The notes under the pieces: model-generated
The model's database searches: none
The model's input: only the letters and a program-made list of their open reading frames with translations
What the model was told of the DNA's origin: nothing
Assembly: GCF_010365305.1 (NCBI RefSeq)
Contig: NZ_CP048279.1
Span: forward strand, 1,178,001-1,242,000
DNA: 64,000 bases
Reading direction: 5' to 3'
From: Staphylococcus sp. MI 10-1553
Lineage (GTDB): Bacteria; Bacillota; Bacilli; Staphylococcales; Staphylococcaceae
Shown: positions 23,263 to 29,237 of the stretch, one piece after another
How the letters are laid out: each line of letters starts with the position of its first letter
Position numbering within the stretch: the stretch's first letter is position 1
Position numbers and translations under genes: made by a program

Positions 23263-25130
23263 GTGCGCCCGGCATGGGTAACACCTTGACGGTGAAAGTC
23301 CGTTACAGGCTTGGTAGTAGGAACTGTTAGCGAAAGACAAGGGTGTCCATTGTGAAGTGGAATCTGAAGGAAGTCGGACGCAAACACTCGCACTGACGAA
23401 CAGAAACATCATACTAAGGCTATGTGGAATGGATGAATCTGCTAAACAAGATGAAGTCCTATACTACCCGAGTTCTATATAGTAAATGATGCGGTGACAT
23501 GAGTGGAAAGAGGTTATACCTTACCCGGGGAGGTCTCATCAGCGGTATTTCTACCGTAGTAACAACGAATGATGAGAAGTCAGCAGAAGTCATAGTAGGG
23601 AAAATGTACCGAAGGACTGAACAATATTCAATACAAAGTAAAGATTGGAGGTTATAGATTTACGACGTACAGAATACGGTCTTAACCGGCAACTTATGGA
23701 AGGATAAGTAGTGGAACGAAAAAGAATACATAAGTGTGTACAGTAAATCTTAGGTGAAATGAAAGAAATGTATCGTAAGTCTTCATCTCTGATGGAGCTT
23801 GTTGTAAGACCTGACAACATAGAAAAAGCTATCAAGAAGGTAAAGAAAAACAAAGGTGCTCCTGGAATTGACGGCATGAAAGTCAGTGAACTCCATGCCC
23901 ACTTTGCGCAATACTTTTCGCAGATAAAAAAGAAACTGCTTGATGGTACTTATCAACCTCAAGCAGTTCGAAAAGTTCAAATTCCCAAACCAAACGGGAA
24001 AATGCGTGTGCTTGGTATTCCTGTCGCTAGAGACAGAGTGATACAACAAGCGATTAGACAAGTGATTGAACCAGGCATCGACCGAACATTTTCAAATCAT
24101 AGCCATGGTTTCAGACCGCATCGTAGCACAGGAACAGCACTTAAGCAATGTGTTGCCTATTACGAAGAAGGCTATAAAATAGCTGTGGATTGTGATTTGA
24201 AACAGTGCTTTGACATGTTGAATCATGATAAGCTCATGTATTTGTTCGAACGCCACGTTCAAGATAAGTCAATTTCTAAATTTATCCGTAGAAGTTTACA
24301 AGTGGGTGCTATTGACCTATCTGGCGAAGTCGCAGAAAGAAAGATAGGTGCACCACAAGGGGGCGTTATCTCTCCCTTACTATGTAATATCTATCTACAT
24401 GAACTGGATAAAGAACTCGAAAAGCGTGGACACCGTTTTGTACGATATGCCGATGATTTTGTTATCTTTGTACGCACAAAACGTGCAGGTGAACGCGTAA
24501 TGACGAGTGTAACGAAATTTATTGAAAAGCAACTGAAGTTGGTTGTCAATGAAGAGAAAAGTAGAGTCGGAGCAGTTACACGTTTAAAGTTTTTGAGTTG
24601 TCTAATAACCAAGGTCAATGGGGTTTATCGTTTCAGACCGACTACGGAAGCAAAAAGAAATTTAATACGCGCCTTAAGGAAAATAACGAAACGAAATAGA
24701 CCTGGTACCTTTAAAGAGATTATCACTGAAATCAACCAAGTAACACGAGGTTGGATAAATTACTTTGGCAGAGGTTTTATCAAAGGATTTATTGAAACCA
24801 CGCAATCTTGGCTAAACCGCCGACTTAGACAACTCATTCTTAAACGGTGGAAAAGAGTAAGAACTCAATATAAGATGTTACGCCAATATGGTCTTGACCA
24901 TAGAAGTGCAATGAAAATCGCACAGTCTCGCAAAAAGTACTGGCGATTATCGAATACGCATGAGGTTCATCGTGCACTTACAACAAAACAACTCTACAAG
25001 TGGGGACTGATACCATTAGCCCAGCTTGCAGAGTTGGCTTACGCAAGATATTGAACCCCCGAGTACGGAACTGTATGCTCGGTGGTGTGAGAGGACGAAT
25101 AGTCAGTTAATGACTATTCTCCTACTCGAT
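23263..25130 (+). mobile_element. Group IIC intron, copy 2 (altered domain V triad)
   Basis: This 1868-bp element matches copy 1 along its whole length with only about a dozen substitutions. In domain V the lower helix reads ACCCCCGAG instead of ACCGCCGAG, so the base at 25058 is C where copy 1 (3191) has G. This turns the class IIC catalytic triad CGC into CCC and replaces a G.U wobble with a C-U mismatch. The upper helix also gains a G.U pair. The maturase is intact, so the copy may be splicing-defective yet still able to supply protein in trans. Confidence 0.88.
23759..25054 (+). CDS. ltrA: Group II intron reverse transcriptase/maturase, copy 2
   Basis: This 431-residue reverse transcriptase/maturase is nearly identical to the one at 1892-3187. 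It has the same RT blocks, FVRYADDFVIF active site and GWINYFGRG X-domain motif, and no endonuclease domain. Two residues differ: Val for Ala in KQCVAYYEEG and Arg for Cys in VYRFRPTT. Arg is the more likely ancestral residue at the second site, but that is inference. It acts on the surrounding intron RNA and could also serve copy 1. Confidence 0.92.
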   Translation: MKEMYRKSSSLMELVVRPDNIEKAIKKVKKNKGAPGIDGMKVSELHAHFAQYFSQIKKKLLDGTYQPQAVRKVQIPKPNGKMRVLGIPVARDRVIQQAIRQVIEPGIDRTFSNHSHGFRPHRSTGTALKQCVAYYEEGYKIAVDCDLKQCFDMLNHDKLMYLFERHVQDKSISKFIRRSLQVGAIDLSGEVAERKIGAPQGGVISPLLCNIYLHELDKELEKRGHRFVRYADDFVIFVRTKRAGERVMTSVTKFIEKQLKLVVNEEKSRVGAVTRLKFLSCLITKVNGVYRFRPTTEAKRNLIRALRKITKRNRPGTFKEIITEINQVTRGWINYFGRGFIKGFIETTQSWLNRRLRQLILKRWKRVRTQYKMLRQYGLDHRSAMKIAQSRKKYWRLSNTHEVHRALTTKQLYKWGLIPLAQLAELAYARY

Positions 25131-25995: not shown

Positions 25996-26067
25996 GGCCC
26001 CTTGGTCAAGCGGTTAAGACACCGCCCTTTCACGGCGGTAACACGGGTTCGAGTCCCGTAGGGGTCA
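25996..26067 (+). tRNA. tRNA-Glu (TTC), copy 2
   Basis: Anticodon TTC. The acceptor arms are GGCCCCT and AGGGGTC. It is otherwise identical to the copy at 25307 and starts one base after the tRNA-Asn CCA end. Confidence 0.95.
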
Positions 26068-26070
26068 TAC

Positions 26071-26103
26071 AATCAGAAGTGAAATATCGCTTCTGATTTT
26101 TTA
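26071..26103 (+). terminator. Terminator between tRNA-Glu 2 and tRNA-Ser
   Basis: AATCAGAAG (26071-26079) pairs with CTTCTGATT (26090-26098), followed by TTTTTA. It lies only 14 bases ahead of tRNA-Ser, so tRNA-Ser is made either by read-through or from a promoter hidden in this hairpin. Confidence 0.8.
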
Positions 26104-26116
26104 TATTTTATAAGGT

Positions 26117-26205
26117 GGAGAGTTGTCCGAGTTGGCCGAAGGAGCACGCCTGGAACGCGTGTAGGCGCCAAAAGCGTCTCGAGGGTTCGAATCCCTCACT
26201 CTCCG
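26117..26205 (+). tRNA. tRNA-Ser (GGA), prophage attachment gene
   Basis: This is a class II tRNA with a long variable arm (GTAGGCGCCAAAAGCGTCTC), anticodon GGA in CTGGAACG, arms GGAGAGT and ACTCTCC, and discriminator G. It is complete at its 3' end. The phage integrase gene begins 62 bases downstream. Confidence 0.95.
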
Positions 26206-26267: not shown

Positions 26268-27314
26268 TCAAGAAAATAATTCTCTGACACGTTGACCTTG
26301 CTCTTTTTTATGTTCGTCGAGCAGATGGGAATAAATATCAAGAGTAATAGATATTTTATAATGTCCTAATCTTTTACTTATATACTCGATTGGTATTCCT
26401 TTCGAAAGTAAATACGATGTGTGAGTGTGTCTTAATGCATAAGGTGTTATTGAATCGTCTTTTAAACCTACTTCTTTTTTTGCATGATTAAATGCTTTAG
26501 ATACAGCACTATGACTTAATTTGAACAGTTTACCATCAACACGCTTAGGTAACTTAGCCAACTTAGATTTAATAAGTTTTATGTCTTTTTGAGCAACTTC
26601 TACAAAGCGATCAGCATTGGCTGATTTAGTACCTCGTAAATGTATAATGCCTTCTTTCTCATTTAAATCTATATCTATCATATTTATTGCATCGCTATAT
26701 CTAGCTCCAGTAATTGCTAAAATAAAAAGAAAAATATAACTTTCTTCATTTCGTTTTTTAAAATATTCAATCAAATTTTCGTATTGTTTTATTGTCATAA
26801 ATTTTGTAGCTTCTTCTTTTGATTTTTTCGTTCCTTTGACTTCCACATTATAGGTAGGGTCCTTTTTTAAATAACCATCATATAATGCATCACGCAAACA
26901 ACGAGATAAACAGCCATGCACTTTTCGTACAGTTTCATCAGTATGACCCTCACCGTAATCATTTAAAAATTTCTGATACTCTGTTCGAATAATATTTTTT
27001 ATTAACATACCTGCACCGAAATATTTTTCAAACAAAATAATAGAACGTTCATACCAATAATATTGGCGCTTAGATAAATTTTTCTTATTTTTTATCACAA
27101 GCCAATCATTGTAATACTCCTTAAATGTTTTATCGTCAATTGCATTTCCATCTTCTAAATCGCGTATCAATTGTTGTGCTGCATTAACCGCCTCAGCTTT
27201 AGTTTTGAATCCTGATTTACGTTTCTTGCCTGATTTAAAAGAGGGGTGTTTGACGTCGTATTGCCAGGACGATGACGTTTTATTTTTACGTTTTGTTACT
27301 GTAAATGATGCCAT
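26268..27314 (-). CDS. int: Phage tyrosine integrase
   Basis: This 348-residue protein starts MASFTVTKRK at 27314, behind GAGGAGGAAC; a further in-frame ATG at 27371 lacks a site. An AP2-like arm-binding N-terminus (WQYDVKHPSFKSGKKRKSGF) precedes the SAM-like core-binding domain and the catalytic domain. Catalytic residues are Arg at about 205 (TGARYSDAI), the box TPYALRHTHTS with Arg 295 (Tyr takes the place usually held by His), His 318 in LGHYK and nucleophile Tyr 328 in DIYSHL. It catalyses integration at tRNA-Ser. No excisionase gene is obvious next to it. Confidence 0.95.
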   Translation of the reverse strand: MASFTVTKRKNKTSSSWQYDVKHPSFKSGKKRKSGFKTKAEAVNAAQQLIRDLEDGNAIDDKTFKEYYNDWLVIKNKKNLSKRQYYWYERSIILFEKYFGAGMLIKNIIRTEYQKFLNDYGEGHTDETVRKVHGCLSRCLRDALYDGYLKKDPTYNVEVKGTKKSKEEATKFMTIKQYENLIEYFKKRNEESYIFLFILAITGARYSDAINMIDIDLNEKEGIIHLRGTKSANADRFVEVAQKDIKLIKSKLAKLPKRVDGKLFKLSHSAVSKAFNHAKKEVGLKDDSITPYALRHTHTSYLLSKGIPIEYISKRLGHYKISITLDIYSHLLDEHKKEQGQRVRELFS

Positions 27315-27349
27315 TTTGTAGTTCCTCCTCAAAAAAAGTAAAAAATAAT

Positions 27350-27369
27350 AAGGGTACGGCAAGGTACCC
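27350..27369 (-). terminator. Terminator of the leftward CI-HIRAN unit
   Basis: GGGTAC and GTACCC form a 6-bp stem around GGCAAG. On the minus strand a TTATTATTTTTT tract follows. It separates the repressor transcript from int. Confidence 0.7.
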
Positions 27370-27449
27370 ATGTATATTATTCGAAACTTGAAACTATAAG
27401 ACTTTTCACTTTACCCTCATCGTCTAGTGATAAAGTGACGTAATAATCC

Positions 27450-28469
27450 TTATTTAAAGTAAGATATTTCCAATTTTAAACCATAATTTTTTTCTTTTGT
27501 TACTATCTTTTCTTCAATATAATCAAATTCTTTATATTTTCCACCATAAATATAGGCTGTACAATCAACTATGTTATCTAAATAATCGTTTAAGGATTCT
27601 GCATTCTCTTTAGGAATATATCCAACAGTGAATTTACCGTACTCGTTAGAAATCATAACCTTTATAGCATTAGAATCATAAATGTTATTTGGTTCTTTTT
27701 TTAAATAAACTCCCGGAACACTTTCGTAACTAGCTATTTCAAATAATTCACCGCCTAATTCCAGTTCCTCTATTAATTCGTTTCCTCTTAAATCTTCATA
27801 CAAGAAAATAAATTCTTCGTTCTTTTTCATAGAATTTATCATTTTTTTCAATTTATTACGTCTATTATCGTAATTTAAACCAACTACGATAAAGGATTCA
27901 CGAAGAATGTTGTCGGTCGTTTTCTCGTCATTTATTGAATCATGGTTTTCCACATTGTTTTGTGTTACAACAGGGGAATTGTCTTTTATTTGTTGAAATT
28001 CTGAATGGTTAGTATATAAGTTTGTCGCTAACGAATCTTTGTTTGATTTTAAGTTATTTAATTCTTCTTTTAATAATTCGATTTCTTTTTCTTTAGTACG
28101 TAATAAATCTTTTTGTGTTTCTAGAGTTGTTTTTTGTTCGTCCAGCGCTTGAGATAAAACTTCTATAGCTATCACAGATTCAACATTAGTAAATTTAAAA
28201 ATTAAATCCTTAGATGAATTGTCATAAGTTAAATAGATGTTATTAGATGTGAAAGTTTTTTTAGATGTCACAGAATTTATATCAGACCATGGAATTACAT
28301 ATATAAAATCCTTTTTCTCACACACGAAGGCTATCTCTTTAAGAGAAGATATAATCGAACCGCTATATTCAACTCCCTGGAAATTTGTTGTTCCCGTTGT
28401 TTCTATAATAGTTTTAAAATCAGCGAATTTATCCAAAAAATATTTCTTATCCCTTTGTTTAGCTTTCAT
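27450..28469 (-). CDS. HIRAN-domain protein of the lysogeny module
   Basis: This 339-residue protein has three parts. The first ~100 residues are a beta-rich region with SIISSLKEIAFVCEKKDFIYVIPW, reminiscent of PH-like folds. Residues ~105-145 form a coiled coil (LDEQKTTLETQKDLLRTKEKEIELL). Residues ~190-339 match a HIRAN domain, with VYLKKEPNNIYDSNAIKVMI followed by FTVGYIPKENAESL. HIRAN domains bind 3' DNA ends or damaged DNA in helicases. No ATPase is attached here. The gene lies 14 bases behind cI with AAGGAG upstream, so it is probably expressed in the lysogen. A defence, exclusion or DNA-sensing role is inference. Confidence 0.7.
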   Translation of the reverse strand: MKAKQRDKKYFLDKFADFKTIIETTGTTNFQGVEYSGSIISSLKEIAFVCEKKDFIYVIPWSDINSVTSKKTFTSNNIYLTYDNSSKDLIFKFTNVESVIAIEVLSQALDEQKTTLETQKDLLRTKEKEIELLKEELNNLKSNKDSLATNLYTNHSEFQQIKDNSPVVTQNNVENHDSINDEKTTDNILRESFIVVGLNYDNRRNKLKKMINSMKKNEEFIFLYEDLRGNELIEELELGGELFEIASYESVPGVYLKKEPNNIYDSNAIKVMISNEYGKFTVGYIPKENAESLNDYLDNIVDCTAYIYGGKYKEFDYIEEKIVTKEKNYGLKLEISYFK

Positions 28470-28483
28470 AAATGACCATCTCC

Positions 28484-29176
28484 TTACAGTATAACTTTTC
28501 CCGCTACTTTAATATCGTGACTACTATCAAAATGTAAGTCAGGATATTTTGAGTTCAACGAAACTAAACGTATTCCTTTTTCGTTGATAAATACCTTTTT
28601 TAAATAAGCTTCACCATCAATAACAAAGATACCGATTTGACCACTATTAATTTGTTTCGTTTTATCAACAAAGATAATCTCTTTATCTTCAAACATAGGC
28701 TCCATTGAATCACCGTTGACCTGCAATGCAAAGTCGTGATTAGGTATGTGTCCGTTGTACTGTGTTGTGAACTCTACACCATCTATTAACGTTTCTCCGG
28801 TACCTGCTGAAGCATAACCATAAACGGCGACCTCTTCTGATACTATGTTGTTTGAATTGATATGTAAGACTTTGTTGTTTTGTTCATCTAATTGTTCAGT
28901 AGCGTAGTCTAATACACGCTTTTGACGGGAAGGTGTGAGTTGGATTAATGTAGTTATTGAGTCGCTAACTAACGTATCATCAATCCCCATCAAGTTTTCT
29001 GGTTTAATATTTAACCCTTTACAAATTTTAATTATATTTTCTACTTTAGCATTGAACACTCCTCTTTCTAATATAGAACGAACTGTCGTATAAGCTAACC
29101 CTATTTCTTCTGAAAAAGCTTTAACCGAACCGGATTTTAATTCCATTAAATGTTTTAAATGTTTTTCTTTTTCCAA
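28484..29176 (-). CDS. cI: CI-like repressor with LexA/S24 autoprotease domain
   Basis: This 230-residue repressor keeps the prophage silent and is inactivated by RecA-stimulated self-cleavage. The N-terminal HTH (about 16-60) contains SVKAFSEEIGLAYTTVRSIL. The S24 domain holds the predicted cleavage site Ala124-Gly125 (YGYASAGTG), nucleophile Ser157 in NGDSMEP and general base Lys193 or 194 in AYLKKV. Translation starts at a TTG (29176) behind GAGGTAACC. The promoter and four operators lie directly upstream. Confidence 0.93.
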   Translation of the reverse strand: MEKEKHLKHLMELKSGSVKAFSEEIGLAYTTVRSILERGVFNAKVENIIKICKGLNIKPENLMGIDDTLVSDSITTLIQLTPSRQKRVLDYATEQLDEQNNKVLHINSNNIVSEEVAVYGYASAGTGETLIDGVEFTTQYNGHIPNHDFALQVNGDSMEPMFEDKEIIFVDKTKQINSGQIGIFVIDGEAYLKKVFINEKGIRLVSLNSKYPDLHFDSSHDIKVAGKVIL

Positions 29177-29208: not shown

Positions 29209-29237
29209 ATAATAACATGCGAAAAATCGTATATCAA
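29209..29237 (-). promoter_or_regulatory. Repressor-maintenance promoter (PRM-like)
   Basis: On the minus strand, TTGATA (29237-29232), 17 bp, TATTAT (29214-29209), ahead of cI. Operator O1 fills the spacer, so full occupancy should repress cI itself. Confidence 0.75.

Follow-up and report, generated by a model that had tools for sequence, protein, structure and literature searches.

A protein with a HIRAN domain that may defend lysogens against superinfecting phages is encoded directly behind the cI repressor gene in the window, the stretch of 64,000 nucleotides of Staphylococcus sp. MI 10-1553 that was analyzed. A probability of about 0.5 is given to the reading that it is a superinfection-defence protein expressed in the lysogen, which would work in the manner of SNIPE but with a head that binds DNA ends and without a recognised nuclease. 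Defence at the entry stage is the best reading because the kinds of N-terminus joined to the HIRAN module match those of SNIPE homologues and the slot between cI and integrase holds known defence genes.

The cI-HIRAN gene pair and its protein

The minus strand carries cI, the HIRAN gene and a tyrosine integrase gene, as read from the list of open reading frames and Pfam (Table 1). The HIRAN gene is the second gene of a tightly spaced pair with cI. The 14-nt gap (28470-28483) and the shared orientation claimed in the earlier note were confirmed. The repressor is of S24 type, and the overlap of the cI stop codon with the predicted ribosome-binding site reads TAAGGAG. In five relatives this site likewise overlaps or abuts the cI stop, the junctions being TAGGAGG (L021, L022, and L042), TAGGAG (L038) and TAAAGGAG (Streptococcus phage 315.3). 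No terminator-like site was found by a consensus scan of the cI-HIRAN intergenic sequence. The promoter-like and terminator-like sites of Table 1 are weak evidence, since 13 promoter-like matches were obtained against a shuffle mean of 19.2 (fewer than in the shuffles) and three terminator-like matches against a mean of 1.1.

By sequence comparison, the HIRAN reading frame is a real gene, because relatives at 70%, 51%, and 38-39% identity cover 99-100% of its length. One full-length relative stands for a cluster of 362 member sequences, and the named close relatives are staphylococcal. A single copy of the gene is present in the single-contig genome (2.9 Mb).

Table 1. Features of the cI-integrase region (window coordinates).
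Feature	Position	Strand	Basis
HIRAN gene, 339 aa	27450..28469	-	exact reading frame; PHROG 6600 (function unassigned), 8.2e-63
PH-like N-terminal part, residues 1-112	28134..28469	-	weak PH-superfold matches, several homologues
Probable coiled coil and linker, about residues 105-185	27915..28157	-	coiled-coil Pfam matches below cutoff
Conserved C-terminal module, residues 190-339, with HIRAN match at 254-323 (27501-27710)	27453..27902	-	Pfam and alignments
cI repressor, S24 type	28484..29176	-	Peptidase_S24 1.8e-27, HTH_26 2.3e-5 (Pfam); PHROG 4 transcriptional repressor 2.3e-43
Tyrosine integrase	26268..27371	-	Phage_integrase 1.6e-19; likely start ATG 27314, after AGGAGG (from sequence)
AAGGAG, predicted ribosome-binding site of the HIRAN gene	28480..28485	-	sequence; overlaps cI stop codon 28484-28486
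Promoter-like site upstream of cI	29209..29237	-	10/12 consensus matches; consensus only
Terminator-like hairpin behind the HIRAN gene	27352..27369	-	consensus only

Three other features of the locus were observed. Two tRNA genes at 26000-26205 (Rfam) adjoin the integrase gene and are likely the attachment region of the prophage; to their left lies a 431-aa reading frame (23759-25054) that by eye resembles a group II intron reverse transcriptase. An 85-aa reading frame on the plus strand (28237-28494) is antisense to the start of the HIRAN gene and the end of cI, and may merit attention given the antisense control of Tha in its operon, with chance as another possible origin.

The HIRAN match (PF08797) reaches E 2.4e-10 and 40.6 bits against a curated cutoff of 24.7, and no enzyme domain above curated cutoff was found in Pfam, PHROGs, NCBIfam or PADLOC, so the stand-alone HIRAN protein described from the sequence in the earlier note is borne out. 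No transmembrane segment was found in it. The C-terminal module of about 150 residues has 53 invariant columns among eight relatives, and aligns with the HIRAN domain of human HLTF at the N-x-Y-D...NAIKV core (about 47 residues, profile E 2e-4). Both the N-x-Y-D and the G-Y-x-x-K motifs are kept (N262, Y264, D265, and K287); we take them to be the motif of the DNA-end pocket, with residue roles as in HLTF.

The other two parts of the proposed layout stand less firmly than the HIRAN part. A coiled coil probably joins the N-terminus to the HIRAN module, the best coiled-coil Pfam match spanning residues 85-216 and lying under its cutoff. The N-terminus of about 112 residues appears weakly PH-like and is not called PH here: bPH_7 gave 25.0 bits with the isolated N-terminus (cutoff 25) and 22.6 bits, below it, with the whole protein. 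Among 11 homologous N-termini, bPH_3 was matched in six, bPH_7 in three, DUF956 in three, GRAM in two and FERM_C in two, with further single matches to two PH-type models and nine other families. The N-terminal profile gave nothing significant against the PDB (best E 0.26). Homology to the PH domain of the PH-SHOCT slot protein of phage IME-SA4 was tried and rejected (hhalign probability 0.08%).

Exchange of N-termini and heads

Relatives were found for the whole protein (25) and for residues 1-115 alone (seven). The window-type N-terminus, at 76-78% identity, was found fused to a DEDDh exonuclease (P0023 and P0024) or to a SAP protein (P0021 and P0022). It was also matched in six of 84 genomes of the genus, the window's own counted; of the other five, G041 encodes a SAP protein, G068 (L015) a DEDDh exonuclease protein, and G079 and G038 (L016 and L017) one DUF4041+T5orf172 protein each, whereas G022 gave a weak match containing stops. 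An N-terminal profile made without the DUF4041 proteins recovers these two (1e-14 and 1e-13), and none of 2000 shuffles scored better than 0.12. The window N-terminus, with no transmembrane helix and with weak PH-like matches, is homologous to that of the PD-Lambda-1-like proteins L016 and L017. One of these DUF4041+T5orf172 proteins matches PD-Lambda-1 at 2.4e-122 over residues 107-533; the PD-Lambda-1 model leaves the shared N-terminus uncovered, which counts against the SNIPE-like reading.

Conversely, the HIRAN module is fused to transmembrane N-termini in P0009, P0010, and P0025, and to a DUF4428-like zinc ribbon in the slot protein L058 (1.2e-4, below cutoff), so that its partners are PH-like, zinc-ribbon or transmembrane parts. 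In viral contigs, the N-terminal scan recovered just two loci, one in the window's own prophage and one on the contig of L021; no relative was confirmed by the scan of genome contigs with the HIRAN alignment, and plasmids gave no match. In PADLOC, P0023 and P0026, both exonucleases, hit the defence candidate PDC-S48; PDC-M03B is matched by the window protein (4.4e-6) via its HIRAN part, and likewise by other HIRAN proteins. Some records give the HIRAN protein P0012 and that of phage SauPS-28 as a restriction endonuclease, which seems to be an annotation error.

Taken jointly, these fusions raise the possibility, held tentatively, that the slot proteins are built from swappable parts: an adapter, which may be transmembrane, PH-like or DUF4428-like, joined to one of several interchangeable DNA-acting heads (GIY-YIG, DEDDh exonuclease, SAP or HIRAN).

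Neighbourhoods of HIRAN genes and contents of the slot

Of the phage records searched, 20 match the window protein, 19 of them from Staphylococcus phages, and in both staphylococcal records opened (P282 and JS01) the HIRAN gene starts 11 nt after cI. The viral survey comprised four IMG/VR scans with at least 211 loci on overlapping contigs, in 34 clusters, of which 33 had enough upstream sequence. The sample is partial, as 80 of 154 and 80 of 115 confirmed loci were kept from two of the scans. Clusters are the safer unit of counting because contigs recur between scans. A cluster was called linked when more than half of its members had an HTH/CI repressor gene no further than 1.3 kb upstream and in the same orientation; the CI, XRE, ImmA, and integrase profiles used were home-made.

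Among the matches listed, 19 of the 33 clusters were linked, a CI, XRE or ImmA gene lay within 250 nt in 15, an integrase lay within 3 kb downstream in 16, and both repressor and integrase were present in 15. The linkage to lysogeny modules that the earlier note set as a check was recovered in the window's own cluster (repressor upstream at 45/46 evaluable loci) and in these 19 clusters, and not in the other 14. As a yardstick, 10 of the 241 features of four phage records (about 4%; 3/68, 3/66, 2/54, and 2/53 per record) start within 1.3 kb downstream of a repressor on its strand. When most seed clusters, nine in number (0, 1, 2, 3, 4, 8, 10, 13, and 17), were excluded and the unlinked cluster 12, which is related to a seed of A2, was kept, 13 of 24 clusters were linked among the matches listed (binomial 5e-12 at 4.5% and 9e-8 at 10%). 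All 10 sampled upstream HTH proteins were confirmed by Pfam; several diverged HTH proteins in cluster 2, recognised by eye, are overlooked by the home-made profiles, so that the linked count would rise with them. Hydrophobic transmembrane-like segments, N- or C-terminal, are present in most members of 12 of the 19 linked clusters, against 4/14 unlinked ones, a difference that is not significant (Fisher p 0.08).

The repressors beside HIRAN genes vary (S24 type, XRE with ImmA, or XRE alone), and the order repressor-(ImmA)-HIRAN-integrase recurs in unrelated phages. The same repressor-HIRAN-integrase order was observed in L056, L064, and L066, whose contigs carry integrases that we take to be Bacteroidota-like. 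Streptococcal phages have CI-HIRAN-int (315.3, and Javan349 with a HIRAN match below cutoff), XRE-DUF955-HIRAN-int (phiARI0578) or regulator-x-HIRAN-int (Javan240, Javan330, and Javan584).

Other settings were also recorded. The HIRAN gene lies between terminase and portal in Javan367, within an SPbeta gene cluster, and near a helicase gene in PaMx74. By eye, a short HIRAN gene follows an ATP-dependent DNA ligase-like gene in L229, L237, and L248, a second, repair-like context, and in five of nine members of cluster 5 (L211, L213, L214, L215, and L218) the HIRAN gene starts 5-12 nt after an integrase-like gene, not a repressor. In two genomes of the genus, transmembrane-HIRAN genes (L019 7852-8793 and L020 7782-8723) stand beside lipoprotein-like genes and not beside cI, and L033 and L044 resemble them. 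In C. difficile phage phiCDKH02 (L106 1139-2728), a HipA-like gene is followed by a HIRAN gene directly before the integrase, and its HIRAN protein matches PDC-M03B at 1e-109. HIRAN was detected in 39 of 299 genomes of the class, 34 over cutoff. Among 24 correctly oriented loci of these genomes inspected by eye with 1.5-kb flanks, a subset of 30 that excludes L073 (the window's own locus), L087, L088, L090, L094, and L095, no CI-like neighbour was seen, and a HipA-like reading frame lay upstream in six (L070, L072, L075, L078, L085, and L092).

The slot holds other genes as well. In phi11 it encodes a 301-aa protein with RNSIMH at 265, which by its sequence agrees with what has been published on Tha-1, a defence protein of prophages; the RX4H motif was present only in this protein (P0031) among the slot proteins compared. 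DEDDh and other exonuclease-like proteins were found in StauST398-1 (15 nt after cI, with a BRCT match just below cutoff), in IPP41 and in O1-69, where the protein has a hydrophobic N-terminus and its gene starts 12 nt after an S24-like repressor gene and precedes an integrase-like gene; O1-69 is an unverified, unannotated record, with the exonuclease-like and S24-like calls made by tblastn or by eye. IME-SA4 has its PH-SHOCT gene 14 nt after cI. DUF4041 proteins with hydrophobic N-termini are encoded 15 and 28 nt after the repressor in PMBT9 and EJ-1, respectively, the assignment in PMBT9 being by similarity to L016. Short proteins of no assigned function are encoded in phiSa2wa_st59 and phiETA, and the slot protein of phiSP119-3 (P0028) gave no Pfam match. 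PdpSau was considered as a positional precedent and dropped, since it belongs to the lysis module according to its paper (PMC10127798).

In 80alpha, published direct RNA-seq shows that the cI promoter drives the slot genes in lysogens, except the antisense ith, and the slot gene tha there is anti-phage (PMC11087260). According to passages of the SNIPE paper (PMC13190303), SNIPE (PD-lambda-1) cuts phage DNA during injection, its homologues without transmembrane helices can have PH or DUF4428 N-termini, and PH domains could, in the authors' opinion, bring such homologues to membranes.

The preferred mechanism would run as follows. The HIRAN gene would be co-transcribed with cI, and its product made while the prophage is silent. 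The PH-like N-terminus would anchor the protein to the membrane or to an entry partner, a step borrowed by analogy from SNIPE and one that transmembrane helices may perform in other slot proteins, and the coiled coil would space or dimerise the protein. The HIRAN head would then grip the 3' end of the incoming linear phage DNA, a capture step borrowed from HLTF, which may block circularisation or replication or hand the DNA to host nucleases. On prophage induction, cI transcription would stop, and self-harm would be limited. The action would thus be SNIPE-like, with an end-binding head replacing the nuclease. Against it, the SNIPE nuclease is essential, and we know of no HIRAN domain that is a nuclease; the slot neighbours of phiSP119-3, phiETA, and phiSa2wa_st59 have no known function, and the unlinked clusters also count against a defence role.

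The place directly behind the repressor would also suit control of induction, by a protein that detects damage via free 3' ends and adjusts the stability of cI or the choice between lysis and lysogeny, and passages of two papers tie HIRAN to damaged DNA and stalled forks (PMC11706625, PMC8262856). The variety of repressors makes a common direct partner unlikely, however, and the membrane anchors of many family members are ill-suited to a regulator of the repressor. S24 repressors, moreover, already respond to the SOS signal. Induction control is therefore regarded as unlikely. That the HIRAN gene is an ordinary passenger, one of many unrelated cargo genes without common role in an insertion-tolerant interval, is considered quite unlikely: the slot contents do differ among sister phages, one of them without Pfam family (P0028), but HIRAN recurs there across many separate clusters, and the slot proteins have kinds of N-terminus and DNA-acting heads in common.

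A role in the care of the phage's own DNA, by protecting or processing ends in integration, excision or early replication, would agree with the integrases downstream or, in cluster 5, directly upstream, and with the phage HIRAN genes located among replication genes or beside the ligase-like gene. Nevertheless, the HIRAN gene is on the lysogeny strand and should be silent during lytic growth, the transmembrane and zinc-ribbon versions fit poorly, and integration would require no holding of free DNA ends; this role is likewise considered quite unlikely. HipN is a HipS-HIRAN antitoxin proposed for HipA-type kinases, and a toxin-antitoxin part of this type is suggested by the HipA-HIRAN-integrase order of phiCDKH02 and by the PDC-M03B match of the window protein. 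It was rejected as first choice, since no kinase gene adjoins the window gene and the N-terminus has no HipS/Couple_hipA match, and it is deemed highly improbable. The superinfection-defence reading is preferred. Its extension is tentative: Bacillota temperate phages, and probably those of other phyla, may have a swappable slot for entry-site defence in the repressor operon, with the nuclease-free HIRAN version capturing the injected 3' end.

Comparison with known systems

Databases already list the gene together with its HIRAN label and neighbours, and there is brief mention in print. The layout, previously supposed to be undescribed, turns up frequently among S. aureus phages; as early as 2014, the repressor region of BU01 was said to encode a HIRAN DNA-binding protein (PMC4070920), and the mechanistic parallel, SNIPE, was published in 2026. 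In the open-access literature searched, mostly as titles and listings, no work on the function of HIRAN proteins from phages came up, and defence by nuclease-free 3'-end capture of an injected genome was described nowhere. Prokaryotic HIRAN domains were called uncharacterised in 2024, in a passage of PMC11090510. That HIRAN keeps appearing next to repressors in unrelated phages, with N-termini of the kinds seen in SNIPE homologues, gives a concrete and cheap hypothesis. If it is true, capture of DNA ends would be a further means by which prophages protect their hosts, and the cI-integrase slot would become a place to seek entry-stage defence genes.

The HIRAN proteins of S. aureus phages (P282, JS01, and P954; PHROG 6600) are the products of the same gene after cI, with 37-60% identity, but they are shorter than the window protein and lack most of the coiled-coil region. 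Human HLTF (PDB 2MZN, 4XZF) shares the HIRAN core and the N-x-Y-D motif, whereas the window and phage module has a longer segment before the core, and the window protein lacks the SNF2 helicase domain of HLTF/Rad5 helicases. HipN and PDC-M03B (HipS-HIRAN) are, like the window protein, phage or island proteins with a C-terminal HIRAN domain; they differ in their N-terminus, and the neighbours of the window gene are cI and integrase, with no HipA-like gene. Tha (80alpha/phi11) and the window gene both lie between cI and integrase of a staphylococcal prophage, in cI-operon position. By contrast, Tha is a HEPN protein with the RX4H motif and an antisense inhibitor gene, and without HIRAN, and the window protein has no HEPN match.

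The window protein is, from its domain content, not a member of SNIPE, because both DUF4041 and the GIY-YIG nuclease of SNIPE are absent, with HIRAN in their place. Nevertheless, the two proteins are alike in having a helical middle, probable in the window protein, and a DNA-acting C-terminus, predicted in the window protein, behind an N-terminal part that is of membrane or PH type in SNIPE and weakly PH-like in the window protein. The HIRAN proteins of the slot and the SNIPE homologues have the same kinds of N-terminus (transmembrane, PH/PH-like, and DUF4428/DUF4428-like), SNIPE-related proteins (PMBT9 and EJ-1) occupy the same cI-integrase slot as the window gene, and SNIPE relatives of the genus Staphylococcus have the PH-like N-terminus of the window protein.
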